Shown piece after piece: positions 46,746-62,240 of a stretch of DNA of 64,000 nucleotides. Position numbers and translations under genes: made by a program. Numbering within the stretch: position 1 is the stretch's first letter; the number at the start of each line of letters is the position of its first letter. This DNA comes from Moheibacter sediminis. GTDB taxonomy: Bacteria > Bacteroidota > Bacteroidia > Flavobacteriales > Weeksellaceae. The notes under the pieces are model-generated. The model was not told the DNA's origin, ran no database searches, and was given only the letters and a program-made list of their open reading frames with translations. Where the stretch lies: the NCBI RefSeq assembly GCF_900176425.1, contig NZ_FWXS01000001.1:434001-498000 (forward strand), given 5' to 3'.

Positions 46746-46752
46746 ATTAGAC

Positions 46753-47514: not shown

Positions 47515-47517
47515 CAA

Positions 47518-47545: not shown

Positions 47546-47567
47546 TTATTTTAATATTTTGGAAAAC

Positions 47568-48416
47568 TTATTTCGCTCCCCATTCTTTCAAAGAAGTTTC
47601 ATTCATTTTTACATAATCAGCATTTCCTGCTTTCTGGGCTAAATCCAAAGATTTTTTAGCCAAATCAATTGCACCTTTTTTGTCACCTGCTTTTGCATAA
47701 ATCAAAGACTGCTGGCGCAATTGCCAGAATTTTGGCTCTTTATTGGCTTTCATTCCTTCATCGAACCAAGTTTTTGCTTGTTTGATATCTTTGTTTGCTG
47801 TGAAATAATAGTTTGCAGCAGCTAAATAATCTTCCGGTTTTGGAGAATTTTTCATCGTTGCATCAATGGAAGCCATCACTTTTTGTTCAGTAGGAACTTC
47901 GATTTTCACTCCTACATAAATGTTTTCCCAAAGAATTCCAAGCATCGCATGGTCTGCCTGTACTTCGTCGATCAACATTGTGAAAGTTTCCATTTTCATC
48001 GGCATAGGATACACTTCTGCAGTCGCTTTAGCAGCTACTTTTTTGTCGTCCCATTTTTCAGGTAATCCCCAGTTTTCAGTATCAGAATAGAAATAAACTT
48101 CCCAAGATTTTTGTCCCGGTTTGGTGAAAATGGCATATTTTCCGGCTTTTACTTTTTGTCCGCTGATTACTACATCATCAGAAAATTCGATGGTAGAATT
48201 TTTGTTAGCACCTGTTCTCCACAATTTATCATAAGGAACCAAATCCCCAAAAACAGTACGTCCACTTACATTTGGGCGCGCATATTCAACTTCTATTTTA
48301 GTCAATCCCACAGTTTGTTCAAATTCAGAAGAAGGACTTGCTTGAGGTGTTTGCACTTGTGCATTTACAGAAATCATCAAAGCACAAATAGCAAGAGTTG
48401 TAAAGATTTTTTTCAT
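47568..48416 (-). CDS. Exported DUF2911 protein
   Basis: 282 residues. Signal peptide 1-19 (ending NAQ). The DUF2911 domain (about 27-175) has IEVEYARPNVSGRTVFGDLVPYDKLWRTGANKN and AGKYAIFTKPG, a beta-sandwich common in Bacteroidota with no assigned function. A C-terminal helical part (about 185-282) looks like two TPR-type repeats (AAANYYFTANKDIKQAKTWFDEGMKAN). It is the last gene before the mobile element. Expected in the periplasm or on the surface. Confidence 0.88.
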   Translation of the reverse strand: MKKIFTTLAICALMISVNAQVQTPQASPSSEFEQTVGLTKIEVEYARPNVSGRTVFGDLVPYDKLWRTGANKNSTIEFSDDVVISGQKVKAGKYAIFTKPGQKSWEVYFYSDTENWGLPEKWDDKKVAAKATAEVYPMPMKMETFTMLIDEVQADHAMLGILWENIYVGVKIEVPTEQKVMASIDATMKNSPKPEDYLAAANYYFTANKDIKQAKTWFDEGMKANKEPKFWQLRQQSLIYAKAGDKKGAIDLAKKSLDLAQKAGNADYVKMNETSLKEWGAK

Positions 48417-48529
48417 TTTAATTTTTGATGTTAAATTTAAGGAATTTAAGCGGATAGCCTTTTAAAAAATGATTAATAACATAAACTTATTTTCGATTAA
48501 ATGAAATTCATATCTTAGAACCGTCATTA

Positions 48530-48697
48530 ATAGGTTGAGATGGGGAATAATTCCTTTTTTTTGAAAAAAAGATTAGTATAAAGCAAAAATAAGCAAAACG
48601 GTTAAAACCGTTTATATACAATGCTTTATAAAACAGTAGTCTTAGTTTGGAACTCGGTGTCTGATAGGTTTTGGTCTTAAAAATACAAAGATAGGTT
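48530..48697. repeat. Three ATAGGTT copies left of the integrase gene
   Basis: ATAGGTT occurs at 48530-48536, 48664-48670 and 48691-48697 within the 408-base gap 48417-48824, which otherwise holds no gene and no tRNA. They may be arm-type integrase binding sites. A hairpin AAACGG / CCGTTT lies nearby (about 48597-48614). Confidence 0.35.
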
Positions 48698-48716
48698 ACT
48701 AATTCGTTACCGATTA

Positions 48717-48726
48717 GCAAAGGTAA
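48717..48726 (-). other. Candidate core att site (left end of the mobile element)
   Basis: The minus strand reads TTACCTTTGC, nine of ten matches to GTANNTTTGC, the core sequence shared by CTnDOT-family att sites. It lies 99 bases upstream of the integrase ATG, with an inverted TTACC/GGTAA pair around the likely cut region (48708-48726) and the element genes to its right. The partner site beyond the right edge cannot be checked. Confidence 0.4.
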
Positions 48727-48824
48727 TCAAAGATGTAACAGGTTATATTTCAGTGTTTTGCCCTATTTTTCATATTCCCTTGTAACTCAATACAATTTAA
48801 TTTTAAACATTAAACATTTGAGTT

Positions 48825-50090
48825 ATGGAGCAGACAAAAAAATCTACGTTCAAATTACTTTTCTACCTGAAAAAGAACGAGCCGAAAAAGAACGGTAATG
48901 CCCCGATTATGGCACGTATTACTATTGATGGAACACCTAAGACTTTAGGAACAAAGTTAGAGATCAATCCAAAGAATTGGGATTTAAAGTATGGAAGAGT
49001 TGAAGGTAAGAGTGCAAAAGCACTAGGTATTAACCAAAAATTGGATAATATAAGGGCACGTATCGATACCCTTTATGAAGATATGCTGAAACACGAGGGT
49101 TTTGTAACGGCACAAAAGCTGAAACTTGCATTTCTCGGTGTTGGTATTATGGAAGATTCCTTGCTGAAAGTATTTAAAAAGAACAATGATGATTTTGGGA
49201 AAATGGTAGTACAAGGAGAACGCTCCGAAAGTACCTACTACAAGTACAAAATTGTCTATAACCACGTTGCTGAATTTATCAAAAGCAGGTATCATCGTGA
49301 TGACATGGCGTTCAGGGAATTGACGTGTGATTTTATCAGAGAGTTTGATTTCTTCCTTCGAATAGACAAAAAGTGCACACACAATACTGTTTGGGTATAT
49401 ACTATGCCACTCTATCGTGTTGCGGAAATAGCTGTCAAAAACGGTCTTATCAGGAAAAATCCTTTTGAAGATTATGAAATATCGATGAAGGAAAATGACC
49501 GTAGCTATTTACTTAAGGAAAACGTTGAATCCCTGTTATTACACAATCCTTCAAAACAAAATTATGAAATTGTAAAGGATCTTTTTGTATTCAGCTGTTT
49601 TACAGGACTATCTTACATAGATATTAAACAACTTAAAAGTACTAACATACAATCCTTTTTTGATGGTCACGATTGGATTATAAGCCGAAGACAGAAATCT
49701 GATGTTGCTTCTAATGTAAGGCTTATGGAAATACCCAAACGAATTATTGAAAAATATAAAGGTACCACCCGAAATGATTCTATTTTTCCTGTTCCTACAA
49801 ACAAAATTTGTAACAGCCATATAGACAAACTAATTCAAGAATTAGGTATTGTTACAGAACAAAAAGTAACCTTTCACACCGCAAGACACACATTTGGAAC
49901 AATGTTTTTGACTGAAGGCGTACCACTTGAAAGCCTTAGTAAAATGATGGGGCATAAAAATATTTCTACCACACAGATTTATGCTAAAATTACAAGCCAG
50001 AAAATAAGTAAAGATATGGATTTGGTATCGCATAAATTTGCTGGAATGGAAGCATCATTTGCAGAAATGGAGAAAGAAGTTCTCGTTTAG
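48825..50090 (+). CDS. int: Tyrosine recombinase / integrase (IntDOT-like)
   Basis: 421 residues. An N-terminal arm-binding-type domain (TFKLLFYLKKNEPKKNGNAPIMARITIDG), a core-binding region (about 105-215) and the catalytic domain. Catalytic residues seen: His-x-x-Arg in FHTARHTFGTMF, the His in MMGHKNISTTQ and the nucleophile Tyr in IYAKI. The first catalytic Arg is replaced: the motif reads CFTGLSYIDI instead of TGLR, as known for IntDOT of CTnDOT, which lacks Arg I. It integrates and excises the element. A strong terminator follows. Confidence 0.92.
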   Translation: MEQTKKSTFKLLFYLKKNEPKKNGNAPIMARITIDGTPKTLGTKLEINPKNWDLKYGRVEGKSAKALGINQKLDNIRARIDTLYEDMLKHEGFVTAQKLKLAFLGVGIMEDSLLKVFKKNNDDFGKMVVQGERSESTYYKYKIVYNHVAEFIKSRYHRDDMAFRELTCDFIREFDFFLRIDKKCTHNTVWVYTMPLYRVAEIAVKNGLIRKNPFEDYEISMKENDRSYLLKENVESLLLHNPSKQNYEIVKDLFVFSCFTGLSYIDIKQLKSTNIQSFFDGHDWIISRRQKSDVASNVRLMEIPKRIIEKYKGTTRNDSIFPVPTNKICNSHIDKLIQELGIVTEQKVTFHTARHTFGTMFLTEGVPLESLSKMMGHKNISTTQIYAKITSQKISKDMDLVSHKFAGMEASFAEMEKEVLV

Positions 50091-50104
50091 AATTATTGCT
50101 TACT

Positions 50105-50137
50105 AAACAAAGCAGGATGATTTCCTGCTTTGTTTGT
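50105..50137 (+). terminator. Rho-independent terminator of the integrase gene
   Basis: Thirteen-base perfect stem AAACAAAGCAGGA / TCCTGCTTTGTTT (50105-50117 and 50123-50135) with a 5-base loop. It isolates the integrase from the next gene and rules out a start of that gene upstream of it. Confidence 0.85.
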
Positions 50138-50212
50138 TTCGAGAAGCTGGGTGCTTTTAATAAAATTCTTTTTTTTAAATTTACTTACAACAATTCTTTA
50201 AACAAAAAAACT

Positions 50213-51226
50213 ATGTCTTTATGTAAACTGTGTCTTGAACGCGAAGCAAACAAAAAGAATACTCACTATCTTACTGATGCAATTATCCGCACCTGTCTTA
50301 ACATAGAAGGTAGTAATGAACGCGAGAAAGGATTATATTTTGCTCTGGATAATACCAATCCATTTATAGACTTTAATTTCCAACGTCTTGATGAGCTGAC
50401 CCTCGAGACTACAATTGGAAGAAAACCAACAGAGGAAGAAATTGAAAATGCGAAATCCATTCCATTTTCAGTGGATTACGTATTTTGTAGTGATTGCGAA
50501 AACCTGTTTACAGATATTGAAACACCATTTATTCAAAACATACTACCACACTTCCGACAAGCAGATCTTTCAGGTCTCAAAATAGTGAGCGAAGCTGATG
50601 TTGTTACAATTCGTAACTTCTTTCACATACAGTTGTACAGAAGTGCAGTCTGTGAAGATATTTTGGCGTTTTCACCTGAGTTTAAGGAGAAGTTACGTCA
50701 CAGTATCCTCCAAAAAAATGGTGACACATCCATCCCCCTTTCGGTGACACATCTCCAAACTCTTGGAGGAAACGCGATATATACAGAAAACTACATTGGA
50801 TTTACTGATGATAAAAACCCTTTTATTGTCTTCATGAATGATTTTGTTATACAGGTTTACGAGAATGAAGATGCAATAAAATTTCTACCTTTCCATGGAC
50901 TAAATGAACAAGAAACTTTTGTCTCTGCTATAAACATCAACGAAGAATCTTTTGCTTTTAAAATATTTGACAATGCAGAAAGAAAGGTTTTTCTCAATAC
51001 GGTAATCGTCAATGAAAAGGTTAAGAAAACAATACAATACTACCGAGATATGTTTGATATGTTCTGGAGAAAGCTATTTGGTGTCGACGCTCCGGTGCTA
51101 CAAAAAGAAAGGTATATCCAGAGTCTTATCAATGGTGATGACAATAACTTAATTAAATACTCAAAACAGCAGGTTTTTGAATTTACCGTAGCTTATATGG
51201 CTAAACTTTTCAATGTCACCAAATAA
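50213..51226 (+). CDS. Hypothetical protein with paired Cys motifs (degenerate HNH-like)
   Basis: 337 residues from the ATG at 50213. The N-terminus MSLCKLCLEREANKKNTHYLTDAII resembles proteins whose start is CxxC followed by SHIIP-type His, with a second Cys pair about 100 residues on (VFCSDCENLF). This is the layout of a zinc-bound HNH-like fold, but the catalytic SHIIPEF is replaced by THYLTD, so nuclease activity is doubtful. The remaining 220 residues are helical with no recognised domain. It sits alone between two terminators in the left end of the element, a usual place for accessory or defence cargo. Function not known. Confidence 0.65.
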   Translation: MSLCKLCLEREANKKNTHYLTDAIIRTCLNIEGSNEREKGLYFALDNTNPFIDFNFQRLDELTLETTIGRKPTEEEIENAKSIPFSVDYVFCSDCENLFTDIETPFIQNILPHFRQADLSGLKIVSEADVVTIRNFFHIQLYRSAVCEDILAFSPEFKEKLRHSILQKNGDTSIPLSVTHLQTLGGNAIYTENYIGFTDDKNPFIVFMNDFVIQVYENEDAIKFLPFHGLNEQETFVSAININEESFAFKIFDNAERKVFLNTVIVNEKVKKTIQYYRDMFDMFWRKLFGVDAPVLQKERYIQSLINGDDNNLIKYSKQQVFEFTVAYMAKLFNVTK

Positions 51227-51250
51227 ATTGCATATAATATTATACAGATA

Positions 51251-51279
51251 GCCGAGGTAAATAATCCTCGGCTTTTTTT
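51251..51279 (+). terminator. Rho-independent terminator after the Cys-motif gene
   Basis: Seven-base GC-rich stem GCCGAGG / CCTCGGC (51251-51257 and 51266-51272) with an 8-base loop and seven T. Confidence 0.88.
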
Positions 51280-51615
51280 AGCCTATACTAATCTTCAAAG
51301 CACATTTATTCCTCCAGCGCCCATCCCATGCAATAAAAGAGCTTTGGCAGGATGAGTTAATAAACCATACTGAAAAACTCCTAATATATCCTCAATAAAT
51401 ATTTTTCAGTACCGTTTACGTGGCTTCCAAAAGCCACAATACTTTAAGATACTAAACTCCAAATTTATAAATTCTGCAAAATGTAATTGCAGGTTTTGTA
51501 ATCACAAGGCCATTTACTCAATGCCTTTTTCACGTGCTTCCACATGATTTTTATTCAAGAACCGATATGCTGTTTTGTTCCATTTCAAGAGCAAAGGTAT
51601 TTCCGTGTTCTTAAC

Positions 51616-51700
51616 GCAGGAACAAGGTCGTGCCTTCCAGATTTGCAAAAAAATCTCCACCCATTCGGGTCGTATTTTTTTGACAAAACCTTGTTCCTGC
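51616..51700. repeat. Nested inverted repeat in the 544-base non-coding region before ssb
   Basis: Three nested pairs: GCAGGAACAAGGT / ACCTTGTTCCTGC (13 bases perfect, 51616-51628 and 51688-51700), AAAAAAAT / ATTTTTTT (51647-51654 and 51674-51681) and ACCC / GGGT (51659-51662 and 51667-51670). It could form a long cruciform or RNA hairpin. The surrounding 51280-51770 has no convincing gene. It may be a transfer or replication origin, a single-strand initiation site or a structured RNA; none is proven. Confidence 0.7.
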
Positions 51701-51770
51701 TAAACACTAACCTTTTTATGCTCGTGAAACGAAACAAAGCATACTCCGGCTCTTTAGACGAATAAAAAAA

Positions 51771-51896
51771 ATGTCAGAAATGAAAAAATACAGCATTGAA
51801 AATGGCAAAAGAGTGAAACGAAACTTCAGCACCTCCTCTCATTGCCGAATAAATCAAGGGAAAAATCAGAACAAAATTAATAACGCAAAAAAGTAG
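51771..51896 (+). CDS. Possible short basic peptide upstream of ssb
   Basis: 41 codons, ATG start (with a second ATG three codons on), stop 5 bases before the ssb ATG. The product is strongly basic and polar (KKYSIENGKRVKRNFSTSS, later NQGKNQNKINNAKK) with no hydrophobic core. Kept because of its position directly before ssb and the absence of stops; it may equally be leader sequence. Confidence 0.3.
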   Translation: MSEMKKYSIENGKRVKRNFSTSSHCRINQGKNQNKINNAKK

Positions 51897-51901
51897 AAAT
51901 C

Positions 51902-52279
51902 ATGAACATTACAGGAAGACTGACAAGAGATGCGGAAGTACGCACAACGTCACAGGACAAACAAGTAGTAAATTTTTCAGTAGCGACCAACGACAGCTAC
52001 CGTAACAAACAGGGCGAACGCATTGAGCAAACAACCTATTTCGACTGCTCCTATTGGATAACCCCGAATGTAGCCAAGCTACTTACAAAAGGCACTTTGG
52101 TAGAACTATCGGGACGAGTAAGTACCAGAGCGTGGACAGGTAATGACGGAGAGCCAAGAGCAGGTCTGAATTTCCATACCTCACAAATCAAATTGCACGG
52201 AGGTAGCAAAAAAAAGGAAACGGTACTAACTACCACAGGCACAAACAATAACACGACAGAAGACGACCTCCCATTTTAA
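51902..52279 (+). CDS. ssb: Single-stranded DNA-binding protein
   Basis: 125 residues. The OB fold begins MNITGRLTRDAEVRTTSQDKQVVNFSVATNDSYRNKQGER and continues with FDCSYWI and LVELSGRVSTRAW. The C-terminus has the acidic tip DDLPF that recruits partner proteins. Shorter than the chromosomal SSB, as usual for mobile-element copies. It protects single-stranded DNA during transfer. It leads the operon that runs to the ThiF gene. Confidence 0.93.
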   Translation: MNITGRLTRDAEVRTTSQDKQVVNFSVATNDSYRNKQGERIEQTTYFDCSYWITPNVAKLLTKGTLVELSGRVSTRAWTGNDGEPRAGLNFHTSQIKLHGGSKKKETVLTTTGTNNNTTEDDLPF

Positions 52280-52323
52280 CAACGAGTATTCAATCATTTT
52301 TTTCACATCAAATTTTAAGCATT

Positions 52324-53397
52324 ATGGCACATAATATCAATTTCAACGAGAGAACAGGACGTTATTCATTTTTTAGTGTACAACAAAAAGCGTGGCACGG
52401 TTTGGGGCAAATCGTAGAACAGTACCCGACAAGCGAGGAAGCTATCAAACACGCAGGGTTAGATTACGAAGTCGTAAAATCCCCACTATTTACAAAAGGT
52501 TCGGGCATTATCGAAACCACCAACAGCATAGAGATAGGCAGTAGCGAATTACAAGTACCTAACTATTTCGCCAACATCCGCACCGATAACAATGCCGTAT
52601 TGGGCGTGGTTGGCAAGGATTACCACATTGTACAAAACCGTGAAGCCTTTAATTTCTTTGATGCTATTGTAGGCGGTGGTGAGGGCATTCTCTATGAAAC
52701 CGCAGGAGCGTTAGGCAATGGAGAACGTATTTTTATCACCGCCAAATTACCCGACTATATCCGAGTTGGGAATGGCGATGACGTTACGGAAAAATACATT
52801 TTCCTAACCACTTCGCACGATGGTAGCGGAAGTATCACAGCCGCATTTACACCTATCAGAATTGTTTGCCAAAACACCTTAAATGCTTCGTTACGCAGTA
52901 TGACAAATGTTGTCCGCATCAAACACACTTCGGGAGCAAAACAACGTGTTGAGAATGCCCATAAGATTATGGGACTTGCCAATACATTTAGCAACCAATT
53001 AGAGGGAATTTTCAATGAATGGGCAAAAGTAAAGGTCACAGACCGAGAGGTAAAAAAGCTAATTCAATTGGCACTTTGCCCGAATAAGGAAACCTTTGAT
53101 TTAATCAAAAAAGGTGCGGAAGATGAAATTTCAACCCTTTTTAAAAATACCGTTGAGGACGCATTTGCATACGCAATGATAAGCGATACACAACAAATGG
53201 ACACAACAAAAGGCACTTTGTTCGGAGCGTATAACGCTGTCACAGGCTACTATCAGAACGTGAGAAATTACAAGAATGACGAAGCCAAATTGCAGAGCAT
53301 TGTATTGGGTGGTACTGCCCAACTGAAATCGCAAAAAGCATTTGAACTGTGTACCGCATTTGCTTTGGACGGTGCGGAAATCCTAAACCTTAATTAA
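52324..53397 (+). CDS. DUF932 / phage-plasmid-like protein
   Basis: 357 residues. Family signatures are GRYSFFSVQQKAWHGLGQIV, YHIVQNREAFNFFDAIVG, ARFxD-like GAGAL segments and the middle TPIRIVCQNTLNASLRS, of the DUF932 (TIGR03299-type) family found almost only on plasmids, phages and conjugative elements. Its role is not established; it often accompanies ssb and PRTRC genes. 44 bases after ssb. Confidence 0.88.
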   Translation: MAHNINFNERTGRYSFFSVQQKAWHGLGQIVEQYPTSEEAIKHAGLDYEVVKSPLFTKGSGIIETTNSIEIGSSELQVPNYFANIRTDNNAVLGVVGKDYHIVQNREAFNFFDAIVGGGEGILYETAGALGNGERIFITAKLPDYIRVGNGDDVTEKYIFLTTSHDGSGSITAAFTPIRIVCQNTLNASLRSMTNVVRIKHTSGAKQRVENAHKIMGLANTFSNQLEGIFNEWAKVKVTDREVKKLIQLALCPNKETFDLIKKGAEDEISTLFKNTVEDAFAYAMISDTQQMDTTKGTLFGAYNAVTGYYQNVRNYKNDEAKLQSIVLGGTAQLKSQKAFELCTAFALDGAEILNLN

Positions 53398-53449
53398 ATA
53401 ACAACAGGCTACCGCCTTAATCGGTGGTAGCCTACTAAAAATATTCATT

Positions 53450-53926
53450 ATGGCAAATTGGTGCAGTAACACGGTTGTATTCGAGGGAACTCCCGAAGCA
53501 ATCACAGCAATACAAGAACTTTTCCAATCAATGAAGGAAAAGGAAGAAAAAACCGAAGAAGGGCAACTACCCGAATTTATGGAAGATACCAACGGTGGGT
53601 ATTTCTTCAATATCTATTGGAACGAGGGCGATGAAGGGCAATTTCAATATGAAACAAAATGGTCGCCCAATATTGAAATTATTCAAAAGATAGCAGAATA
53701 CTACCAAGTGGATTTTGTACAGGACTATGAAGAAATGGGAAACCTTGTTTACGGGAGAGCAACTTATCGGGATGGCATACTCAGCGATATATTTTTGGGC
53801 GATGATGATTTTGAAGCCTACGAACAGGATGAAGAAACAGACCTCTACCACTTTGAGGGAGAAGAGTACGAAAGTGATTATGAGATATTGGAAACTCTTT
53901 TGGAACGCAAAATTGTAACACTATGA
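53450..53926 (+). CDS. DUF1281-like protein (ferredoxin-like Api92 fold)
   Basis: 158 residues. Starts MANWCSNTVVFEGTPEAITAIQELF, a pattern of the DUF1281/Api92-like family carried by mobile elements; the second half is very acidic (EAYEQDEETDLYHFEGEEYES). A conserved Trp-Cys at the N-terminus and SPNIEIIQKIAEYY are typical. Function unknown; the acidic, small make-up would suit a DNA-mimic, but that is only a guess. Overlaps the next gene by 4 bases (ATGA). Confidence 0.75.
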   Translation: MANWCSNTVVFEGTPEAITAIQELFQSMKEKEEKTEEGQLPEFMEDTNGGYFFNIYWNEGDEGQFQYETKWSPNIEIIQKIAEYYQVDFVQDYEEMGNLVYGRATYRDGILSDIFLGDDDFEAYEQDEETDLYHFEGEEYESDYEILETLLERKIVTL

Positions 53927-54123
53927 AAGTAACGGATTTGAACGGTTACGAAATTGAAGTAACCGACCTAAAAGAAGCTATCCGTATTGCGAAGCGAAAT
54001 ACAGGATATAGCCACGAGGACAAAAGTTTTTCAGACTTCGATAAAAGGCAAAATGCCTATTGGACGGATATACACAAGAAATTGATAGCAATCAAAAAAC
54101 AATCTTCAACAATTAAAATTTAA
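53923..54123 (+). CDS. Small hypothetical protein
   Basis: 66 residues, overlapping the DUF1281-like gene by 4 bases and ending 5 bases before PRTRC protein E. A polar protein without membrane segment: LNGYEIEVTDLKEAIRIAKRN, then HEDKSFSDFDKRQNAYWTDIHKKLIAIKK. No family recognised, but the translational coupling makes it a real part of the operon. Confidence 0.65.
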   Translation: MKVTDLNGYEIEVTDLKEAIRIAKRNTGYSHEDKSFSDFDKRQNAYWTDIHKKLIAIKKQSSTIKI

Positions 54124-54128
54124 GAACG

Positions 54129-54731
54129 ATGAATACAAATTTTTTCAATCAGATACAGCAGTTGGACTTTACAGGAGTTTTACAACTGAACATTTCAAAA
54201 GGAATAGAAAGCAACCTAATTGTAACAGTATTGCTTAACAACGAACAATGCGGAGATAGTGCCAAAAACGGTATTCCCCCATTGACATTCAACGCCACAC
54301 CCCAAGAGTTTGACGAGGGATTTTTTGAGCAGATAACAACACCTATACAAAAGGTATCGGGCTTAATGGTGGATATGGAAAAATTTCAAAAGCAACTTGA
54401 TGAAGCCAAAGCACAATCGGCAATCGAGAAAGCAAAAACCGAAAAAGAGAAAAAAGAAAAAGAAGCCAAAGACAAGAAGTTTAAAGATGCAATGGCAAAG
54501 GCGGATGAGTTGGAAAAAGAGGGCAAATTCCGTGAAGCGTGGATAAAAGTTCCCGATATAACGGAGTTCTCCGAAAAAGCGGACGAGATACGCAAACGCA
54601 AAACATCATTGTCCGACAAGTTCGCAACACCGAGCCTTTTCGGAGCAATGGAAGAAGCAACGCCCGAACCGCCAAAGGTGGAAGAACTTACTGCCGATTA
54701 TCCCATTGATGAAGCGGACGAGGAAGAATAA
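54129..54731 (+). CDS. PRTRC system protein E-like
   Basis: 200 residues. The N-terminal 90 residues (FFNQIQQLDFTGVLQLNISKG, LNNEQCGDSAKNGIPPLTFNATPQEFDEGFF) match the start of PRTRC protein E. A charged coiled coil follows (about 88-150, KEKKEKEAKDKKFKDAMAKA) and an acidic tail. PRTRC (ParB-related, ThiF-related cassette) genes occur on plasmids and conjugative elements; protein E has no known activity. 27 bases before protein C. Confidence 0.82.
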   Translation: MNTNFFNQIQQLDFTGVLQLNISKGIESNLIVTVLLNNEQCGDSAKNGIPPLTFNATPQEFDEGFFEQITTPIQKVSGLMVDMEKFQKQLDEAKAQSAIEKAKTEKEKKEKEAKDKKFKDAMAKADELEKEGKFREAWIKVPDITEFSEKADEIRKRKTSLSDKFATPSLFGAMEEATPEPPKVEELTADYPIDEADEEE

Positions 54732-54758
54732 AAGTGTTAACCCAAAAATTAGAAAGTT

Positions 54759-54977
54759 ATGTTATTAGCAACACAGTTAGAACGAGTTTTCATACTCAAA
54801 GATAAAGGACAGGACATCAGGCTGACCGACCCCGAACCACGTTGGAGCGTGGAAGCCGTAATGAATTTTTACGCCAATATGTACCCGATTTTGACAACTG
54901 CAAAAGCATCTGCACCACAGATAAAAGATGATGCAGTCGAGTACAAATTTGAGAGCGTAATGGGTACGAAAGGTTAA
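54759..54977 (+). CDS. PRTRC system protein C (ubiquitin-like candidate)
   Basis: 72 residues. It starts MLLATQLERVFILKDKGQDIRLTDPEPRWSVEAV and ends in a strand and a C-terminal Gly (ESVMGTKG). PRTRC protein C has been placed by comparative work (as recalled) among prokaryotic ubiquitin-like beta-grasp proteins that occur with ThiF/E1 and E2-like genes, and the ending at Gly fits a conjugatable or thiocarboxylated modifier. Not tested here beyond sequence pattern. It is next to a large protein and two genes before the E1-like gene. Confidence 0.85.
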   Translation: MLLATQLERVFILKDKGQDIRLTDPEPRWSVEAVMNFYANMYPILTTAKASAPQIKDDAVEYKFESVMGTKG

Positions 54978-54994
54978 ACCAAAATTTTAAAACG

Positions 54995-56161
54995 ATGAAT
55001 TATGCAACGCAATATCATATCGGGAATAATCAACATACCCGAACAGAAACGACAACAGCAGTTACACCGACAGTTGGGCGAGTTCGCCAATTGGATGCAA
55101 AGACCAAAGGACGCCAACCAAGTGCAGAAAGACAAACAGAAATCCGTACCGATAGCAATGTTGCCAATGCTATTCTAAAATGTACATTTCTGCCTAAATT
55201 GAAAACAGCACAATCCGTACAGGCTTGTCAGAAAACGGAGAGGGATTTTTACAAGTCCCTTTCCCGACTTGCCGAGCATTACAGCATTGAGCCAATGCAA
55301 ACCCAAGATTTTGAGTTTCCCTACAATATAACATTGTCTATGTGGGATATGGAAACTAAATTGAAGCGTACCAATATCAATTGGGATGGTTTCAAATTGA
55401 TACAGAATAGCGGTAAAACCTATTTTGTGAGTGAGGAACGATACAATACAGGTACAACTTTGTACTATATTCCCATTAAGCCACTGTTTAAAATGCTCAA
55501 AGACCCGAAGCGTAAAAAGACCGCACAACTTTTACTGTCGGTATGCAGTTATCTGTACCACATCGTCCTAATTCCCTATTACAGGCAGGAAGAAAGTTAT
55601 TTGTATTGGCTTTACGAAACGATGAATGATTGGGTGGAACAGGATGAGGAAACGGAAGAAACAGAAACCAACAAACGTGAATTGAGAAAAGCCGAATACA
55701 TTGGCGATAAGATAGAACAGAAGTTATTCAACCGCATCAATCTAAAGATATTTGAACAGCGTTTGAACCGATTTAAAAGTGTTGATACGTTCGATAAGGA
55801 ATGTTGGCAAGTGGCTTGTAATGCGTTTGCCCTTTGTACAGAATATCCGAACGCAACTATTTTCAGAAACGCCACATTGCCCGAAAAAGACCTTTATAAT
55901 GATGATTACGAAAATGAAATAATCGGAATGGAAAAATACATTTCATTTATTGCAGACACTAAAGGTTGGTTATACGAAAACCTTTCAGATACCATCAACA
56001 ATGAATTTAACGAGTACGGAGCAATGGAAGAACCAACTATTTCCAAGCGGTTTGACGGAAGCGAAATACCAACAACCGACCTTGATTTTGAGAACCGTTT
56101 GTTTGATTTATTGAATGATTTGAGTGGATTATTATACGAATACAAAACGATAGAAAAATGA
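54995..56161 (+). CDS. PRTRC-associated large hypothetical protein (possible protein F)
   Basis: 388 residues as read from the first ATG. From about residue 70 it looks like a helical protein (DFYKSLSRLAEHYSIEPMQTQ, KLFNRINLKIFEQRLNRFKS, a Cys-rich helix ECWQVACNAFALCTEYP, and FENRLFDLLNDLSGLLYEYK). The first 60 or so residues are Thr/Gln/Arg-rich and look unlike coding sequence; an overlapping frame (55002-55178) reads a more protein-like Gln-rich stretch, so the N-terminus is doubtful. It lies where other PRTRC loci have protein F; the homology is not certain. Overlaps protein B by 4 bases (ATGA). Confidence 0.65.
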   Translation: MNYATQYHIGNNQHTRTETTTAVTPTVGRVRQLDAKTKGRQPSAERQTEIRTDSNVANAILKCTFLPKLKTAQSVQACQKTERDFYKSLSRLAEHYSIEPMQTQDFEFPYNITLSMWDMETKLKRTNINWDGFKLIQNSGKTYFVSEERYNTGTTLYYIPIKPLFKMLKDPKRKKTAQLLLSVCSYLYHIVLIPYYRQEESYLYWLYETMNDWVEQDEETEETETNKRELRKAEYIGDKIEQKLFNRINLKIFEQRLNRFKSVDTFDKECWQVACNAFALCTEYPNATIFRNATLPEKDLYNDDYENEIIGMEKYISFIADTKGWLYENLSDTINNEFNEYGAMEEPTISKRFDGSEIPTTDLDFENRLFDLLNDLSGLLYEYKTIEK

Positions 56162-56880
56162 ACACAACAACAGATATAACAAACCATTTTGGCAGTATGT
56201 ACTATCCAAAATCCGCTTTGGTTTTCTATGAAACCAAAGGAACGGAAACCGATGTGTATGTGGAGCATTTTGATATGGATAGCAACGGAACGCCTATCAA
56301 TGCCCACCCATTGACGGTAAAAGAAGCCAATGTATTGGCAAAAGCTTTAAAGACCGATGAAGAAAAGAACGCAGCTTTTTTAAAGCCAAAAGGAATTTTG
56401 CCGACCAATATTCTGCATATCAATCCGAATGCTGAAAAAGGTACTGTGCTTTGGTGCACCAAAGCACAGCAACGGAAACTGTATTTTGTGGAAAGTTTGG
56501 GCATACCCAACGGAATGGCACAAGTACCGCCAATGCTTTGGTTAGCGAACAAAAACAGTCTTACCGTATTTGCTTTGGCAAATGATAGAAGACCCACCGA
56601 GAAAACGCCATTGTATTACGCACCTTTCTTCAATATCTACGAAAAGGGCAATGTATGTATGGGTACGGTAAGTATTGATATTAAAAATTCTGCTTCGGTT
56701 GAGGAATTTATGCAAGCGTGGGAACATTATTTTTTCAATTCCTATTTCAGTCATTCATTGAGTGCAAATTTGACAAAAAAGAACATCGTAAGTCTATGGA
56801 AAGACCTTATCGGTACGGATAAACCCTTTCCAAAAGAAGTATTGAAAAAGAACAACAAAACCCTTAAAAATCTATTGTGA
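56158..56880 (+). CDS. PRTRC system protein B (E2-like fold candidate)
   Basis: 240 residues. Family signatures are YYPKSALVFYETKG, PLTVKEANVLAKAL, KPKGILPTNILHINPN, VLWCTKAQQRKLYFV and FFNIYEKGNVCMGTVSID, with a lone conserved Cys in NVCMG, followed by WEHYFFNSYFSHSL. PRTRC B has been related (as recalled) to the prokaryotic E2/ubiquitin-conjugating-like fold; the Cys in CMG is the obvious candidate for a thioester residue. The stop codon overlaps the ThiF start (TGATG). Role not shown experimentally. Confidence 0.85.
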   Translation: MNTTTDITNHFGSMYYPKSALVFYETKGTETDVYVEHFDMDSNGTPINAHPLTVKEANVLAKALKTDEEKNAAFLKPKGILPTNILHINPNAEKGTVLWCTKAQQRKLYFVESLGIPNGMAQVPPMLWLANKNSLTVFALANDRRPTEKTPLYYAPFFNIYEKGNVCMGTVSIDIKNSASVEEFMQAWEHYFFNSYFSHSLSANLTKKNIVSLWKDLIGTDKPFPKEVLKKNNKTLKNLL

Positions 56881-57686
56881 TGAACACAGCAAAAACAGCA
56901 ATCCATTTTACAGACAATTATCTGCTCAATCCGACAAACCCGATTTCGATAAACCTTATCGGAGCAGGTGGCACAGGCTCAAAAGTATTGACCGCTTTAA
57001 TGGAAATAAACAAAAGTTTGATAGCATTGGAACACGCAGGGTTGCAAGTCCGCCTTTGGGATGATGATGTTATCACGAGTGCCAATTTAGGCAGACAACG
57101 ATTTGCAGAAAGTGAAACAGGATTGTACAAATCCGTTGCTTTAATCAATCGTTGCAACCGTTGGGCAGGTACAAATTGGAAAGCCGAAACGGTAAAATTT
57201 GAAAAGGACAATTTTGAAAGACCGCCCGAAAAAGCAAAGGCAATCATTACCATTACGTGTGTGGACAATGTACAGTCGAGGTTTGGCGTTGCTGAAATTC
57301 TTAAAGAAATAAGCTACCGCAGACACTACCAAGACGAGCCAAAATATTGGCTGGACTTTGGCAACAGCCGAGATATTGGACAAGTGCTACTATCTACTAT
57401 CGGAGAGATAAAGCAACCCAATTCAGAGAAATACCAAACGGTGGCAAGCCTGCCATTTGTTACCGATGAATTTGGCGAATTACTGAAGCAATCCGAACAG
57501 GAAGACAACACGCCAAGTTGCTCACTTGCAGAAGCATTGGAACACCAGGATTTGTTTATCAATTCATCATTAACACAAATGGGGTGTTCTTTGCTATGGA
57601 ACTTGTTCCGCAGGGGAATGACCGAATACAAAGGATTTTTTCACAACCTGAAAGATTTCCGCACCCACCCGATAAAAGTTGCCTAA
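56880..57686 (+). CDS. PRTRC system ThiF-family protein (E1-like)
   Basis: 268 residues from the ATG at 56880, one base overlapping the stop of protein B (a GTG three bases upstream is also possible). The Rossmann-like ATP motif GAGGTGSKV lies at 28-36; RLWDDDVITSANLGRQRF holds the Asp and the Asn/Arg of the E1 adenylation site; ITCVDNVQSR is the usual segment after the third strand. A Cys in NTPSCSLAEALEHQDLFIN may be the active-site Cys. No C-terminal zinc CXXC motif is present. It should adenylate the C-terminus of a ubiquitin-like protein. Confidence 0.88.
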   Translation: MNTAKTAIHFTDNYLLNPTNPISINLIGAGGTGSKVLTALMEINKSLIALEHAGLQVRLWDDDVITSANLGRQRFAESETGLYKSVALINRCNRWAGTNWKAETVKFEKDNFERPPEKAKAIITITCVDNVQSRFGVAEILKEISYRRHYQDEPKYWLDFGNSRDIGQVLLSTIGEIKQPNSEKYQTVASLPFVTDEFGELLKQSEQEDNTPSCSLAEALEHQDLFINSSLTQMGCSLLWNLFRRGMTEYKGFFHNLKDFRTHPIKVA

Positions 57687-57702
57687 AAGCCTAAGTCGGC
57701 GG

Positions 57703-57745
57703 GCAAAAATGCAATTCCTCGCTTCGGTCGGAAACGCATTTTTGC
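57703..57745 (+). terminator. Hairpin after the ThiF gene
   Basis: GCAAAAATGC / GCATTTTTGC (57703-57712 and 57736-57745), with a second inner TTCC/GGAA pair. It may end the PRTRC operon although no T run follows; the structured loop makes a regulatory or recombination role possible. A second 7-base hairpin TGGGATA/TATCCCA lies at 57838-57856. The rest of the 476-base gap 57687-58162 shows no gene except a promoter. Confidence 0.5.
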
Positions 57746-57955
57746 GGTTTAAAGCGGATGCAACCACTTTGCCAAAATGCACCACTTCACAATTCCCTTT
57801 CTTCACATTTTACCAAACAGGTTGCGAGTTTTTTGCGTGGGATATTCATTATCCCATTTGTTGTATTTACCACTGACTTTTTTTTTTCCAGACTGCGACC
57901 AAAGAAAAGATTCTGTGTTGTGAAACAATTTTTTTTAGTTTTTTTTGGTGTTAAA

Positions 57956-57986
57956 TTGTCTACAATAACTATAAATTGTACTTTTG
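57956..57986 (+). promoter_or_regulatory. Candidate promoter of the SulP gene
   Basis: TTG (57956-57958), 20-base spacer and perfect TACTTTTG (57979-57986). It would give a leader of about 170 bases before the SulP start, long for this phylum and containing a 14-codon reading frame (57998 to 58042). Confidence 0.4.
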
Positions 57987-58162
57987 CACCACTCAATGAA
58001 AAGAACAGTACAAATATCATCCCAAGTTACTCCGCCTTGATCTTAGGCTAACTGTTATATTTCCCAATTTTAATTTATTGGCTTCTCTGTCGTACCCGAA
58101 GGTTTTGCTTTCGTGTACATACTTTTCTATTTACATTTTTACCACTTTAAACATAAATTTTT

Positions 58163-59698
58163 ATGCAGAAAATTATCAATTTGTTTGATTTCAAACAGAA
58201 AATTAATTACAAAAACGAAATTCTTGCGGGTCTTGCGGTGGCTATGACCATGATACCTGAGTCTTTATCCTTTGCTATTCTGGCAGGGCTTTCGCCTTTG
58301 ACAGGGCTTTATGCAGCTTTTTTAATGGGTATTGTTACTGCAATTTTGGGAGGCAGACCCGGAATGGTTTCTGGGGGAGCCGGAGCAACGGTAGTAGTAC
58401 TTATCGCATTGGCAGCATCACACGGTGTGGAATATCTTTTTGCTGCGGTTATATTAGCAGGTGTACTGCAATTTTCAGTAGGAATTTTTAAACTGGGTAA
58501 ATTTGTCCGCCTGATCCCACAACCAGTAATGTATGGTTTTTTAAACGGCCTTGCAGTAATCATTTTCATGGCACAGGTAGCTCAATTTAAAGTTGTAGAA
58601 AACGGGATAGAAGGTTGGATGCAGGGGCCGGCGCTTTATCTAATGGCTGGATTGACATTATTAACTATAGCCATCGTATTTATATTGCCAAAATTTACAA
58701 AAGCGGTTCCTGCATCTTTAGTAGCAATAATAGTTGTCTTTGGTATTGTATATTTTTTCGGCATCGATACTAAAAAAGTTATTGATATCGCCTCTGTAGG
58801 AGGCTCTTTACCTTCATTTCACATCCCTTCTATTCCTTTTACTCTGGAAACATTGAAAATTATTTTCCCTTATGCCTTGGTAATGGCAGGGGTTGGATTG
58901 ATTGAAAGTCTGTTAACGCTTAATATGGTTGATGAAATAACCAGCACAAAGGGACAATCTAACCGTGAGGCTGCGGCGCAAGGTATAGCCAATATCACCA
59001 ACGGTTTCTTCGGCGGAATGGGTGGATGTGCAATGGTTGCCCAAACTTTAGTGAATATCGGAGCTGGAGGAAGAGCCAGACTTTCTGCAATAGTTGCAGC
59101 TATAGCAATTTTATTAATCATTCTGGTTGCAGGTCCTGTAATCGAGCAAATTCCAATGGCGGCATTAGTCGGGGTGATGATGATGGTAGCTATAGGCACA
59201 TTTGAGTGGGTCAGCTTTCGAATCATTAATAAAATGCCTCGTCACGATATTTTTATTGGTATGCTGGTAGCAGTTATAACTGTATTATTACACAACTTAG
59301 CTTTAGCCGTTTTGATAGGTGTAGTTATTTCGGCTCTTGTATTTGCTTGGGAAAGTGCCAAACGAATACGTGCTAGAAAGTATGTAGATGAAGATGGTGT
59401 AAAGCATTACGAAATTTTTGGCCCGCTTTTCTTTGGCTCTGCTATGGCATTTACCGAAAAATTTGATGTTAAAAACGATCCCGATGAGGTGATAATAGAT
59501 TTCAAGGAAAGCAAAGTTGTAGATATGTCCGCAATTGAAGCCTTGAATAAAATTACGGAGAAGTATCACAAGGAAGGTAAAAAACTACATTTACGTCATT
59601 TAAGCCAAGATTGCAGGCAATTACTTAAAAATGCAGAAACAGTTATTGATGTGAATATTATTGAAGATCCTACCTACAAAGTAATGACTAATAAATAG
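58163..59698 (+). CDS. SulP-family inorganic anion transporter with STAS domain
   Basis: 511 residues. Eleven or twelve membrane helices with the SulP signatures GLAVAMTMIPESLSFAILAGLSPLTGLYAAFLMG and GAGATVVVLIALAASHG; the C-terminal STAS domain (about 425-511) reads VIIDFKESKVVDMSAIEALNKIT. The family carries sulfate, bicarbonate and other oxyanions with Na+ or H+. Here the substrate is open. It heads the cargo after the PRTRC genes and precedes arsR, which hints at an anion role in metal or metalloid stress. Confidence 0.92.
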   Translation: MQKIINLFDFKQKINYKNEILAGLAVAMTMIPESLSFAILAGLSPLTGLYAAFLMGIVTAILGGRPGMVSGGAGATVVVLIALAASHGVEYLFAAVILAGVLQFSVGIFKLGKFVRLIPQPVMYGFLNGLAVIIFMAQVAQFKVVENGIEGWMQGPALYLMAGLTLLTIAIVFILPKFTKAVPASLVAIIVVFGIVYFFGIDTKKVIDIASVGGSLPSFHIPSIPFTLETLKIIFPYALVMAGVGLIESLLTLNMVDEITSTKGQSNREAAAQGIANITNGFFGGMGGCAMVAQTLVNIGAGGRARLSAIVAAIAILLIILVAGPVIEQIPMAALVGVMMMVAIGTFEWVSFRIINKMPRHDIFIGMLVAVITVLLHNLALAVLIGVVISALVFAWESAKRIRARKYVDEDGVKHYEIFGPLFFGSAMAFTEKFDVKNDPDEVIIDFKESKVVDMSAIEALNKITEKYHKEGKKLHLRHLSQDCRQLLKNAETVIDVNIIEDPTYKVMTNK

Positions 59699-59729
59699 CA
59701 TTGGATTATACAAGTTTAATATTACAACT

Positions 59730-59766
59730 ACAGCAATAATTTTTTAAAAATTATTGCTGTTTAAAT
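59730..59766 (+). terminator. Rho-independent terminator of the SulP gene
   Basis: Fifteen-base inverted repeat ACAGCAATAATTTTT / AAAAATTATTGCTGT (59730-59744 and 59746-59760), effectively a 13-base stem with a small loop. Confidence 0.75.
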
Positions 59767-59771
59767 TTATT

Positions 59772-59787
59772 ATCGTAATATTGCGAT
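59772..59787 (+). promoter_or_regulatory. ArsR operator candidate 1 (upstream of arsR)
   Basis: ATCGTAATATTGCGAT, a near-perfect 16-base palindrome (14 of 16 positions symmetric). Its second copy (60161-60176, ATCGTAACATTGCAAT) precedes the DUF6428 gene. It lies 20 bases before the arsR ATG. Confidence 0.7.
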
Positions 59788-59807
59788 ATATTTATTTTTT
59801 TAAACTG

Positions 59808-60137
59808 ATGGGTGTCACAAAAACCGAAATTTTTACAGAACAGCAGAACCATTTAGCTGGTATTTTAAAGGCACTGGCTCATCCTGCCCGTATAGCTATA
59901 CTGCAACATATCATTAAACAAAATGCCTGCATCTGTAATGATCTGGTAGAAGAATTGGGATTGGCACAAGCGACAATTTCACAACACTTGAAAGAGCTGA
60001 AAAATATTGGTATCATTAAAGGAAATATAGAAGGAACTAGTGTATGTTACTGTATTAATGAAACAGTCTGGAATGAGGTTAAGAAGGAACTCAATAGCTT
60101 TTTTGTCGAGAATGTAAATAGTAAAGAATGCTGTTAA
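59808..60137 (+). CDS. arsR: ArsR-family transcriptional repressor
   Basis: 109 residues from the ATG at 59808; the 18 residues upstream in frame contain the operator and are not ArsR-like. A winged helix with AGILKALAHPARIAILQHI and the recognition helix in GLAQATISQHLKELKNIGIIKG. The metalloid site is in NACICNDLVEEL (Cys-x-Cys in the alpha-3-like position), and a further Cys pair ends the protein (ECC). It should release DNA on binding arsenite or antimonite. Confidence 0.9.
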   Translation: MGVTKTEIFTEQQNHLAGILKALAHPARIAILQHIIKQNACICNDLVEELGLAQATISQHLKELKNIGIIKGNIEGTSVCYCINETVWNEVKKELNSFFVENVNSKECC

Positions 60138-60160
60138 GCGTTTTTTTTTAACACCAAAAC

Positions 60161-60176
60161 ATCGTAACATTGCAAT
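60161..60176 (+). promoter_or_regulatory. ArsR operator candidate 2 (upstream of the DUF6428 gene)
   Basis: ATCGTAACATTGCAAT, 14 of 16 identical to candidate 1, 30 bases before the next ATG. It suggests that ArsR controls both its own gene and the downstream resistance set separately. Confidence 0.65.
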
Positions 60177-60205
60177 ATAACATTTATTGAATTAATATCA
60201 GAAAT

Positions 60206-60679
60206 ATGAAGTTATCAAAAATTAAAGAAATCCTGCCAACATTAGTAAATGTTGGATTTCAATTAGAAAACGGAACTTTAGTTCCAGAACATTTCCACGT
60301 TACCGAAGTGGGACAAATTACTAAAAACTTTATAGACTGTGGTGGCGTAATCCGGTCAGAAAAAGTTGTAAACTTCCAATTATGGAATGCGGACGATTTC
60401 GAGCACAAATTAAAGCCAGTTAAACTATTAAACATCATCAAGCTATCCGAAGAAAAATTAGGTATTGAAGATGCGGAAATTGAGGTGGAATACCAAAGCG
60501 AAACGATTGGCAAGTATGATTTGGATTTCAACGGAGATACATTTGTACTGAAAAATAAAACAACAGCCTGCTTGGCTCAAGATGCCTGCGGGATTCCTTC
60601 AGATAAACAAAAGAAAAATTTGGCGGAACTGCCTGTAAATAATGCTAATGCTTGTACTCCAGGTGGCGGATGTTGTTAA
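60206..60679 (+). CDS. DUF6428-type protein of arsenic loci, Cys-rich tail
   Basis: 157 residues. Starts MKLSKIKEILPTLVNVGFQLENGTLVPEHFHVTEVGQITKNFIDCGG and continues with FQLWNADDFEHKLKP, the pattern of a small family seen next to arsR in Bacteroidota. It ends in GGGCC with further Cys (DACGIP, ACTPGG), which could bind arsenite or copper; this is inference. Follows arsR after the second operator. Name and role are not established. Confidence 0.75.
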   Translation: MKLSKIKEILPTLVNVGFQLENGTLVPEHFHVTEVGQITKNFIDCGGVIRSEKVVNFQLWNADDFEHKLKPVKLLNIIKLSEEKLGIEDAEIEVEYQSETIGKYDLDFNGDTFVLKNKTTACLAQDACGIPSDKQKKNLAELPVNNANACTPGGGCC

Positions 60680-60691
60680 AATTGAATTTAT

Positions 60692-61123
60692 ATGTTTTCA
60701 AAAATCATTCATACAGATAATTCAAAGACAACAATCATAATCCGACTGATTGTTGGAGGTGTTTTTTTATCGGAGGGCATTCAGAAATTTCTATTTCCTA
60801 CTTTACGGGGAGCCGGGCGGTTTGAAAAAATTGGCTTGCCATCTCCTGAATTTCTTGGAAGTTTTGTAGGCATATTTGAAATCCTTTGCGGAGCACTTAT
60901 TTTGCTCGGGTTGCTTACAAGGTTAGCAAGTATTCCGCTCATCATCATTATGCTGGTTGCCATTGCCACGACCAAAACATCTATTTTGGCTAATGAGGGT
61001 ATTTGGGAATTGCTGCACGGTAGCCGTACGGATTGGGCGATGCTTTTGGGAAGTATGTTTTTGTTAATCAAAGGTGCAGGTAATTGGTCTATTGATAAAA
61101 TCGTAATGAGAAATGGAGCGTGA
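60692..61123 (+). CDS. DoxX-family membrane protein
   Basis: 143 residues, four membrane helices. IIRLIVGGVFLSEGIQKFLFP at the N-terminus, GSFVGIFEILCGALILLGLLTR in the second helix and SRTDWAMLLGSMFLLIKGAGNWSID are typical for DoxX. Members serve in thiosulfate or quinol-linked electron transfer or oxidant resistance. 12 bases after the DUF6428 gene; overlaps chrA by 11 bases. Confidence 0.85.
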   Translation: MFSKIIHTDNSKTTIIIRLIVGGVFLSEGIQKFLFPTLRGAGRFEKIGLPSPEFLGSFVGIFEILCGALILLGLLTRLASIPLIIIMLVAIATTKTSILANEGIWELLHGSRTDWAMLLGSMFLLIKGAGNWSIDKIVMRNGA

Positions 61124-62240
61124 TATTCAAATAAAGGAAATTGCCAAGCTCTTTCTCAAGCTTGGTTTTATTGGCTTCGGAGGTCCCGCGGCTCATATTG
61201 CTATGATGCAGCAGGAAGTTGTTGTCAAAAAGAAATGGATGAGCGAACAGCATTTTTTGGATTTGTTGGGAGCTACTAATCTCATTCCTGGCCCCAACAG
61301 TACAGAAATGGCGATACACATCGGCTATGACAAAGGCAGTTGGAAAGGGTTAATTGTTGCGGGGTTATGCTTTATTTTACCTGCGGTTTTCATTACCGGG
61401 ATATTTGCATGGTTGTATCAGCAATACGGACAATTGCCCGAAGTACAGCCCTTTATTTACGGTATCAAACCTGCAATCATCGCTATTATCATAGGAGCTG
61501 TTTTTCCATTAGCAAAGAAATCTGTCAAGTCCACATTCTTGGCGGTTGTAGGTATTCTTGTTTTGGTACTGTCATTATTCGGCATTAGTGAAATCTATTT
61601 GATGTTTGGAGCGGGATTGCTGGCAATGGGTTTGTATTCTATTCAGAGCAAAAGAAATACGCTCCAAAGTTTTATCCCGCTCGCATTCTTACAAATCGCA
61701 CAAAGCCCCTTACTCTCTGAAACAAATACCAAATTATTTTGGATATTCCTGAAAATTGGTGCTATCCTCTATGGAAGTGGTTATGTTCTTTTCGCCTTTT
61801 TAGATACGGAGTTAGTTGCAACGGGCTTACTCACCCGGCAGCAATTAATGGATGCTATTGCTGTTGGACAGTTTACCCCAGGTCCTGTTTTTTCTTCTGT
61901 TACGTTTATTGGCTATCAAATCAACGGACTATCCGGAGCAGTTATTTCTACGATTGCTATTTTTCTGCCGTCGTTTATTTTAGTAGCATTGCTAAATCCC
62001 TTGATGAAAAAAATGCGCCAATCTAAAGGACTGTCCATTTTTCTCGATGCGGTCAATGTGGCATCTGTTGCAATCATAGTCGCTATTTGTCTTACAATGG
62101 GCAAAGAAACTATTACTGATTGGCGGACGATATTAATTGCAATGATAAGTGCGATCGTAGTTTTCAAATTCAAAAAAATAAATAGTGCCTTTGTGGTTAT
62201 TGGAGGAGCATTATTAGGGTATTTATTTAATCTTATCTAA
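61113..62240 (+). CDS. chrA: Chromate transporter, two-domain ChrA
   Basis: 375 residues, with two homologous halves, so the long-chain form. The first half has FLKLGFIGFGGPAAHIAMMQQE and ATNLIPGPNSTEMAIHIGY; the second has LKIGAILYGSGYVLFAFLDTELV and GQFTPGPVFSSVTFIGY. About 10-12 membrane helices. It exports chromate in characterised members. Overlaps the DoxX gene by 11 bases, so coupled with the arsenic set. Confidence 0.92.
   Translation: MERDIQIKEIAKLFLKLGFIGFGGPAAHIAMMQQEVVVKKKWMSEQHFLDLLGATNLIPGPNSTEMAIHIGYDKGSWKGLIVAGLCFILPAVFITGIFAWLYQQYGQLPEVQPFIYGIKPAIIAIIIGAVFPLAKKSVKSTFLAVVGILVLVLSLFGISEIYLMFGAGLLAMGLYSIQSKRNTLQSFIPLAFLQIAQSPLLSETNTKLFWIFLKIGAILYGSGYVLFAFLDTELVATGLLTRQQLMDAIAVGQFTPGPVFSSVTFIGYQINGLSGAVISTIAIFLPSFILVALLNPLMKKMRQSKGLSIFLDAVNVASVAIIVAICLTMGKETITDWRTILIAMISAIVVFKFKKINSAFVVIGGALLGYLFNLI

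Follow-up and report, generated by a model that had tools for sequence, protein, structure and literature searches.

A PRTRC cassette without JAB in Moheibacter sediminis: a probable ubiquitin-like conjugation system and the link between JAB and the tail of protein C

Introduction

A ubiquitin-like conjugation operon of bacteria was predicted by Iyer et al. in 2006 (PMC1779556) as their type 6d, with Bacteroides among its owners. In that description, the operon combines a ubiquitin-like protein C with a C-terminal Gly, a helical protein, an E2-like protein B with a Cys and a downstream His, and an E1-like ThiF protein; a JAB protein is always fused to the E1 or encoded in the adjoining gene, and trimming and removal were proposed for these JABs. 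Here we describe an operon of this kind, a PRTRC cassette, at positions 54129–57686 of a 64,000-nucleotide stretch of the Moheibacter sediminis genome (3.23 Mb), which covers contig positions 434001–498000 and is referred to as the window. The cassette has a C with a conserved Gly, an E2-like B with Cys and His and an E1-like ThiF, but differs from the 2006 type in that no JAB lies next to the E1 and the gene for C encodes no tail. Given the 2006 prediction, the ubiquitin-like idea for PRTRC is not new; what is new is the JAB-less variant and the link between a tail on C and the JAB protein, PRTRC A. The literature searched, whose coverage left out most subscription papers, yielded neither an experimental study of PRTRC nor a mention of this link. 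The cassette probably gives the mobile element that carries it a complete ubiquitin-like conjugation system of its own, with C trimmed by A in other lineages but encoded in mature form, without A, in Bacteroidota.

Several other described systems share features with the cassette. BilABCD has the same conjugation logic of E1, E2 and ubiquitin-like (Ubl) protein in a single operon, but its BilA has two Ubl domains and is cut by a JAB-type deubiquitinase of the operon, exposing Gly (PMC11354881), whereas the window cassette encodes one small protein and no JAB. An archaeal Rpn11 is reported to process a ubiquitin precursor (PMC6043591). Cap2 of the cyclic-oligonucleotide-based anti-phage signalling system (CBASS) and cap2_3 of 6A-MBL are E1-E2 proteins, whereas the window cassette has a separate E1 and E2 plus its own Ubl protein, and its ThiF profile matches them more weakly than it matches eukaryotic E1s. 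ThiF/ThiS and MoeB/MoaD also pair an E1-like adenylation domain with a small Gly-ending protein; the cassette differs from them in having an E2-like B, and no sulfur-transfer gene is seen in it. Deletion of a 'Bil-like' locus in Bacteroides thetaiotaomicron left hankyphage assembly unaffected (PMC12135933); whether that locus is PRTRC is not stated there. PRTRC genes are named in two published genome or plasmid descriptions and are present in a transcriptome table for B. thetaiotaomicron, by which BT2645 is PRTRC E and BT2648-49 are B and ThiF.

Cassette structure and conserved residues

The five genes of the cassette lie on the same strand in the order E, C (Prok_Ub), X388, B (Prok-E2_D) and ThiF:

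54129..54731, + strand: PRTRC protein E, 200 amino acids (aa); PF19556 (PRTRC_E) E 1.4e-74, TIGR03741
54759..54977, + strand: PRTRC protein C, putative ubiquitin-like modifier, 72 aa, last residues MGTKG, ending at Gly72
54995..56161, + strand: X388, 388 aa, rapidly evolving helical protein occupying the PRTRC F position
56158..56880, + strand: PRTRC protein B, E2-like, 240 aa, CMG at residues 167–169 (Cys167), His199
56880..57686, + strand: PRTRC ThiF, E1-like adenylating enzyme, 268 aa, ATG at 56880, GAGGTGS at residues 28–34

The genes nearly overlap, with gaps of 27 nt between E and C and 17 nt between C and X388 and overlaps of 4 nt between X388 and B and 1 nt between B and ThiF. An earlier note on this DNA, made from the sequence alone, had described a tightly packed operon, a 72-residue C ending in MGTKG and a ThiF with a full GAGGTGS motif, and all were recovered at the positions it gave. 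Its assignment of three products to PRTRC C, B and ThiF also agrees with the family profiles: C matches PF14454 Prok_Ub (E 1.5e-26, 92.4 bits) and TIGR03738 (57 bits, cut-off 45.95), B matches PF14460 Prok-E2_D (E 3.6e-37), and ThiF matches PRTRC_ThiF (E 6.3e-66), TIGR03736 (222 bits, cut-off 144.75) and PF00899. The family matches of the cassette are far above chance, while the NCBIfam model PRTRC_B (TIGR03737) gave 127.8 bits on B, 3.7 bits short of its cut-off of 131.45. The note had called the CMG Cys of B a lone cysteine; the Cys is present, at residue 167, but a second one stands at residue 100 and is not conserved in the alignment.

Single-residue conservation was followed across 243 cassettes, whose sources were genomes, plasmids, viral contigs and a single phage; they were typed for the presence of A and for residues of C past the GxKG motif. 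These were drawn from 279 loci with a ThiF match, after 32 without C, three with a partial ThiF and one with an open ThiF had been left out. The glycines of the ThiF GxGGxG motif were kept in 243, 243, 242 and 243 of the 243 (G28 and G30 in 243/243), and D61, N69, R72, D129 and Cys214 were each found in 243/243. Cys214 sits in a PSCS motif that the earlier note did not mention and is a candidate thioester Cys. In B, Cys167 was kept in 239/239 readable sequences (four gaps) and His199 in 229/238. Both ThiF Cys214 and B Cys167 are kept in cassettes with and without JAB.

These residues bear on the possibility that the action of C, B and ThiF is non-covalent or confined to the cassette's own proteins, for instance as C oligomers or by modification of E or X388 alone, within a partition or replication complex. 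Such a role would fit the ParB, single-stranded DNA-binding protein (SSB) or replication genes annotated near many of the plasmid cassettes inspected, and the fact that no E3 is seen. However, the typed loci retain the residues of the adenylation site and the two Cys, and a purely structural role is disfavoured because it would need neither; we consider this explanation very unlikely.

Purifying selection seems to act on all five genes, most weakly on X388. Among 19 loci not picked by C, the median ratio of nonsynonymous to synonymous substitution rates (dN/dS), based on the unsaturated 24–61 of 171 locus pairs per gene, was 0.12–0.23, highest for X388 (0.23) and 0.12–0.16 for the others. The idea that C evolves exceptionally slowly, in the manner of ubiquitin, was rejected. 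In these 19 loci, picked by ThiF, C is conserved about like ThiF (median identity 0.62 for C and 0.61 for ThiF; median dN/dS 0.16 and 0.12), and for the 10 closest loci dN/dS is 0.08 for C and 0.12 for ThiF. The identity of 94–100 % seen for C in the first 80 genome loci was dropped as evidence because that set had been picked by C itself.

Comparison with solved structures

The ThiF profile, compared with solved structures, matched the ubiquitin, NEDD8 and UBA6 E1s first (ubiquitin E1, E 4e-10; Uba1 is among the matches), followed by ThiF, UBA5, SUMO E1 and Cap2. Judged by profile similarity, ThiF is thus closest to the adenylation domains of the ubiquitin and NEDD8 E1s, in keeping with the E1-like role that had been proposed for it. 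B was modelled with AlphaFold2 from 60 sequences (mean predicted local distance difference test, pLDDT, 85.7). The first 33 rows of a VIA comparison with this model were E2 or ubiquitin E2 variant (UEV) entries by title, chain identity being presumed. The best row was UBE2S (Z 5.2, root mean square deviation 4.3, 117 residues aligned, model residues 70–229), and the first unrelated row had Z 3.3.

Several results count against a ubiquitin-like reading of B and C. Foldseek gave no match in the Protein Data Bank to the B model at E <= 0.001, the profiles of C and B found no credible relative among solved structures, and hhalign of the C profile with seven ThiS/MoaD proteins gave a probability of 0.5 %, which amounts to nothing. 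The model of B leans to the E2 fold, at a Z of 5.2 that is only middling; in the structural comparison suggested in the earlier note, E2-type entries lead in VIA, without a Foldseek match. Support for the ubiquitin-like reading of the cassette as a whole comes from its families and residues and, to a moderate degree, from the fold of B.

The same comparisons bear on sulfur-carrier chemistry, in which ThiF would place a thiocarboxylate on C as in ThiF/ThiS and MoeB/MoaD and B would be a partner enzyme rather than an E2. In its favour, C is a small stand-alone protein ending in Gly and ThiF also matches ThiF, MoeB and Uba4. Yet the best ThiF profile matches are ubiquitin E1s, B keeps an invariant Cys and its model leans towards E2, relatives with JAB exist, and the plasmid cassettes inspected carry no annotated sulfur-transfer gene between E and ThiF. 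This chemistry is accordingly judged quite improbable for the cassette.

Absence of JAB

PRTRC A comprises DUF2016 and Prok-JAB, the two A proteins scanned both giving strong Prok-JAB matches, and the motif HxH-x(10-12)-D was present in 70/70. The earlier note had seen no JAB-type enzyme, and this is borne out. No JAB is found among the cassette proteins, and PRTRC_A was found in 0/395 genomes of the phylum, the window genome included, by a search that detected it in 2/2 JAB-bearing control plasmids. Prok-JAB gave two weak matches in the window genome, neither reaching the cut-off (best E 0.0104). The records behind loci without A were also searched; no A was found in 68/68 viral records, which are possibly fragments, or in 8/8 whole plasmid records, and positive controls were found, one in each of the two viral searches.

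Tail of protein C and its link to JAB

The C-terminal Gly of C, which the earlier note had pointed out, is conserved among relatives. It is the last residue in 98/98 typed Bacteroidota loci (GTKG in 96, GVKG in 1 and GIKG in 1), and across all loci without A, C ends in Gly in 171/172 and in Ala in 1. Two distant loci end in GTKA instead of GTKG, L140 (2349-2552, with A) and L240 (3975-4187, without A), and these count against the proposed reading.

A was called with a profile made for this analysis (score >60 bits) and was sought within <=7 kb on each side in 79 typed genome loci and within the 9.7 kb of plasmid locus L153. Pelobacter pPRO1 (L140) was counted as having A, which a whole-record search found after the circular record had been split just after ThiF, and L276-L278 were assigned 'no tail' by hand, because the profile alignment broke off early and the proteins have GTKG as their last residues. 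Of the 243 cassettes, 51 had A and a tail, 20 had A and no tail, none had a tail without A and 172 had neither (Fisher P=2e-36). For 112 representatives at 80 % ThiF identity the numbers were 18, 16, 0 and 78 in the same order (P=8e-12); both P values ignore kinship. Within this set a tail on C is confined to cassettes with A.

The rule runs in one direction. That 20/71 loci with A have no tail weighs against trimming as the sole work of A, and indicates that JAB does more than trim or is not for trimming. In sphingomonad-type cassettes, for example, JAB is present and C mostly ends exactly at Gly, some being one residue longer. A one-directional rule fits a JAB with two jobs, trimming and removal; on that view the JAB-less branch would lack both.

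The tails range from 1 to 100 aa and are very unlike in length and letters. A role for the tail as a uniform degron was rejected, the ends being too diverse. The motif C[PS]LL was observed in 31 of 41 tails of at least 30 aa, all from JAB-bearing loci (e.g. L163, L166 and L004), despite their differing lengths and letters.

On the ThiF tree, which is unrooted, A changes five times and the tail eight times; later trees hold 109 of the 112 rows, three long-branched representatives having been left out. Only two supported independent contrasts were available (five over all branches), in which the tail on average went the same way as A in 1.1, the opposite way in 0.0 and showed no difference in 0.9, and a sign test over the contrasts was not significant. 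These tree results weigh against a functional link and, because there are few independent changes despite strong counts, the association is a lead and not proof. The link could instead be inherited history, related cassettes sharing both features with no functional tie, for which the small number of tree changes and the two supported contrasts speak. On the other hand, a tail is found in 0/172 loci without A though it switches eight times, all tailed rows have A, the tails vary greatly, and there is a precedent for JAB trimming of a ubiquitin-like precursor in BilABCD (PMC11354881). Shared history alone therefore seems rather unlikely to account for the link. Both a loss of A in Bacteroidota and a gain elsewhere are compatible with the unrooted tree.

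The absence of JAB and the tailless C also frame the question of reversal. With no JAB and a C encoded ready to activate, conjugation would be one-way unless another enzyme reverses it. A variant of the proposal is that C is conjugated and then removed by a host or other JAB-type enzyme, with only the trimming gene missing. Reversal by a host enzyme is conceivable because the host has one RadC, which we take to belong to the JAB superfamily, and this counts against one-way tagging; the tailless cassettes with A likewise suggest that A may do another job. Against removal by a host JAB stands the window genome, in which Prok-JAB, a model that strongly matches 2/2 A proteins, gave just the two weak matches below the cut-off. 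We regard this variant as unlikely. One-way tagging by the Bacteroidota mobile-element branch, with JAB absent, Gly exposed from the start and a tail on C predicting JAB family-wide, is put forward tentatively, as a reading that is somewhat less likely than not.

Proposed mechanism

In the proposed conjugation system, ThiF would adenylate C at Gly72 and then bind it through a thioester at Cys214. From there C would be handed on to Cys167 of B, acting as an E2-like enzyme aided by His199, and B would join C to a target, perhaps selected with help from E or X388. Where other lineages make a tailed C, the JAB protein A would cut the tail off, and A may also strip C from targets. In the Bacteroidota branch, which has no A and encodes C ending at Gly, the cassette would have no reversal step of its own. 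Judging by the neighbouring genes, the target may be involved in replicating, partitioning or transferring the element. The SSB and DUF932 genes here, and the genes for ParB, SSB, helicase or DNA polymerase III that accompany several plasmid cassettes, weakly suggest a target in element maintenance or replication. The ubiquitin-like conjugation reading of the earlier note is thus partly supported, although the note had missed the invariant ThiF Cys214 and the tail-JAB link.

The JAB-less form with a mature modifier is a minimal version of the system, with three core proteins, no processing step and the catalytic residues kept, and it therefore lends itself to direct laboratory reconstitution. 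For the JAB-bearing form, the tail-JAB rule makes a clear-cut prediction.

Distribution of the cassette

The 80 cassettes nearest by C are in Bacteroidota, including Chryseobacterium, Flavobacterium, Sphingobacterium and Pedobacter. A PRTRC ThiF above the cut-off was found in 16/395 genomes of the phylum, and the full E-C-X-B-ThiF arrangement was present in 18/20 regions taken around ThiF matches (tblastn). The exceptions were L120, with ThiF only, and the degenerate L135. In L135 (G277:C1), ThiF has three internal stops and tblastn finds neither E nor C; this cassette has decayed, and a full one (L132) is present in the same genome.

In Bacteroidota genomes B is followed directly by ThiF, and JAB-bearing proteobacterial cassettes have the order (ParB)-(E)-C-F-B-A-ThiF. 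JAB-less plasmid cassettes, with A missing from the whole record, also occur outside Bacteroidota, in Alteromonas, Thiodictyon, Pseudomonas and Marinobacter. The loci on Deinococcus gobiensis plasmid P2 (L144) and in Thiodictyon (L146) are rearranged: ThiF precedes B, no JAB adjoins it, and no C was found in L144.

JAB-bearing cassettes were also observed in viral sequences, on the 33-kb genome of Burkholderia phage BgVeeders33 (L157) and on IMG/VR viral contigs of ~14-62 kb (L162-L198, a few without C); their C proteins mostly have tails of ~60-100 aa. On a further set of viral contigs (L202-L209), a distant ThiF lies downstream of a long A-like ORF (~450 codons), the B match is weak or absent and no C was found; these are possibly another branch of the PRTRC family. 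A viral scan using a ThiF from Pseudomonas found no relative.

X388 and rejected labels

X388 has no Pfam or NCBIfam match. Compared with an alignment of F proteins (hhalign), it gave a probability of 37.7 and E 3.4e-4 over 116 columns. The single F protein scanned belongs to Pfam alpha-hel2, which matches 1/53 X members, at E 0.026. The X388 model (pLDDT 74.3, residues 1–68 under 50) is mostly helical. Probably X388 is a divergent version of F, which the 2006 paper calls a 'largely alpha-helical protein'. Labelling X388 as an E3 or as E2-like was rejected, as no solved fold stands out; similarity to UFC1 (three Foldseek rows at E 2.6-5.2 and two VIA rows at Z 2.1) is at noise level.

An anti-phage defence label was likewise rejected, PADLOC and PHROGs giving weak or no matches. 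In PADLOC, ThiF matched E1-E2 proteins weakly (E 0.0012-0.0021), E matched one cyclase weakly (0.0045) and C, B and X388 had no match; PHROGs had no match to the cassette proteins.

Mobile element context

The cassette is carried by a chromosomal CTnDOT-like integrative conjugative element, whose features upstream of it are as follows:

48554..48566, no strand: left end of the integrative element, where DNA identity with L012, L027, L038, L042 and L024 starts
48825..50090, + strand: tyrosine integrase (Arm-DNA-bind_5, Phage_int_SAM_5, Phage_integrase)
50096-51226: ORF without an assigned family, between integrase and SSB
51902..52279, + strand: SSB, upstream of the cassette (TIGR00621, E 2.2e-21)
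52324..53397, + strand: DUF932 / TIGR03299 phage/plasmid-like protein (PF06067, E 2.3e-69; TIGR03299)
53450..53926, + strand: Api92-like protein with DUF1281_C (PF18406, E 8.6e-29)

The left end is placed where the outer flanks of the five relatives diverge, as judged by eye. The right end was not located, no 14-mer of 48520-48613 being repeated within the 40 kb searched, and no tRNA was found in 46000-59000. Past the cassette are sulfate-transporter, chromate-transporter and ArsR-type genes. The earlier note had placed the cassette on a conjugative element, and TraG, TraJ, TraM and DUF4138 genes are indeed found ~12-20 kb past it, beyond the window. Window positions 48556-58055, with the integrase and the cassette, share 99.9 % DNA identity with Sphingobacterium alimentarium (L027), and positions 52717-61974 share 99.9 % with Pedobacter ureilyticus (L028). 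Identity at this level points to recent transfer of element DNA between genera.

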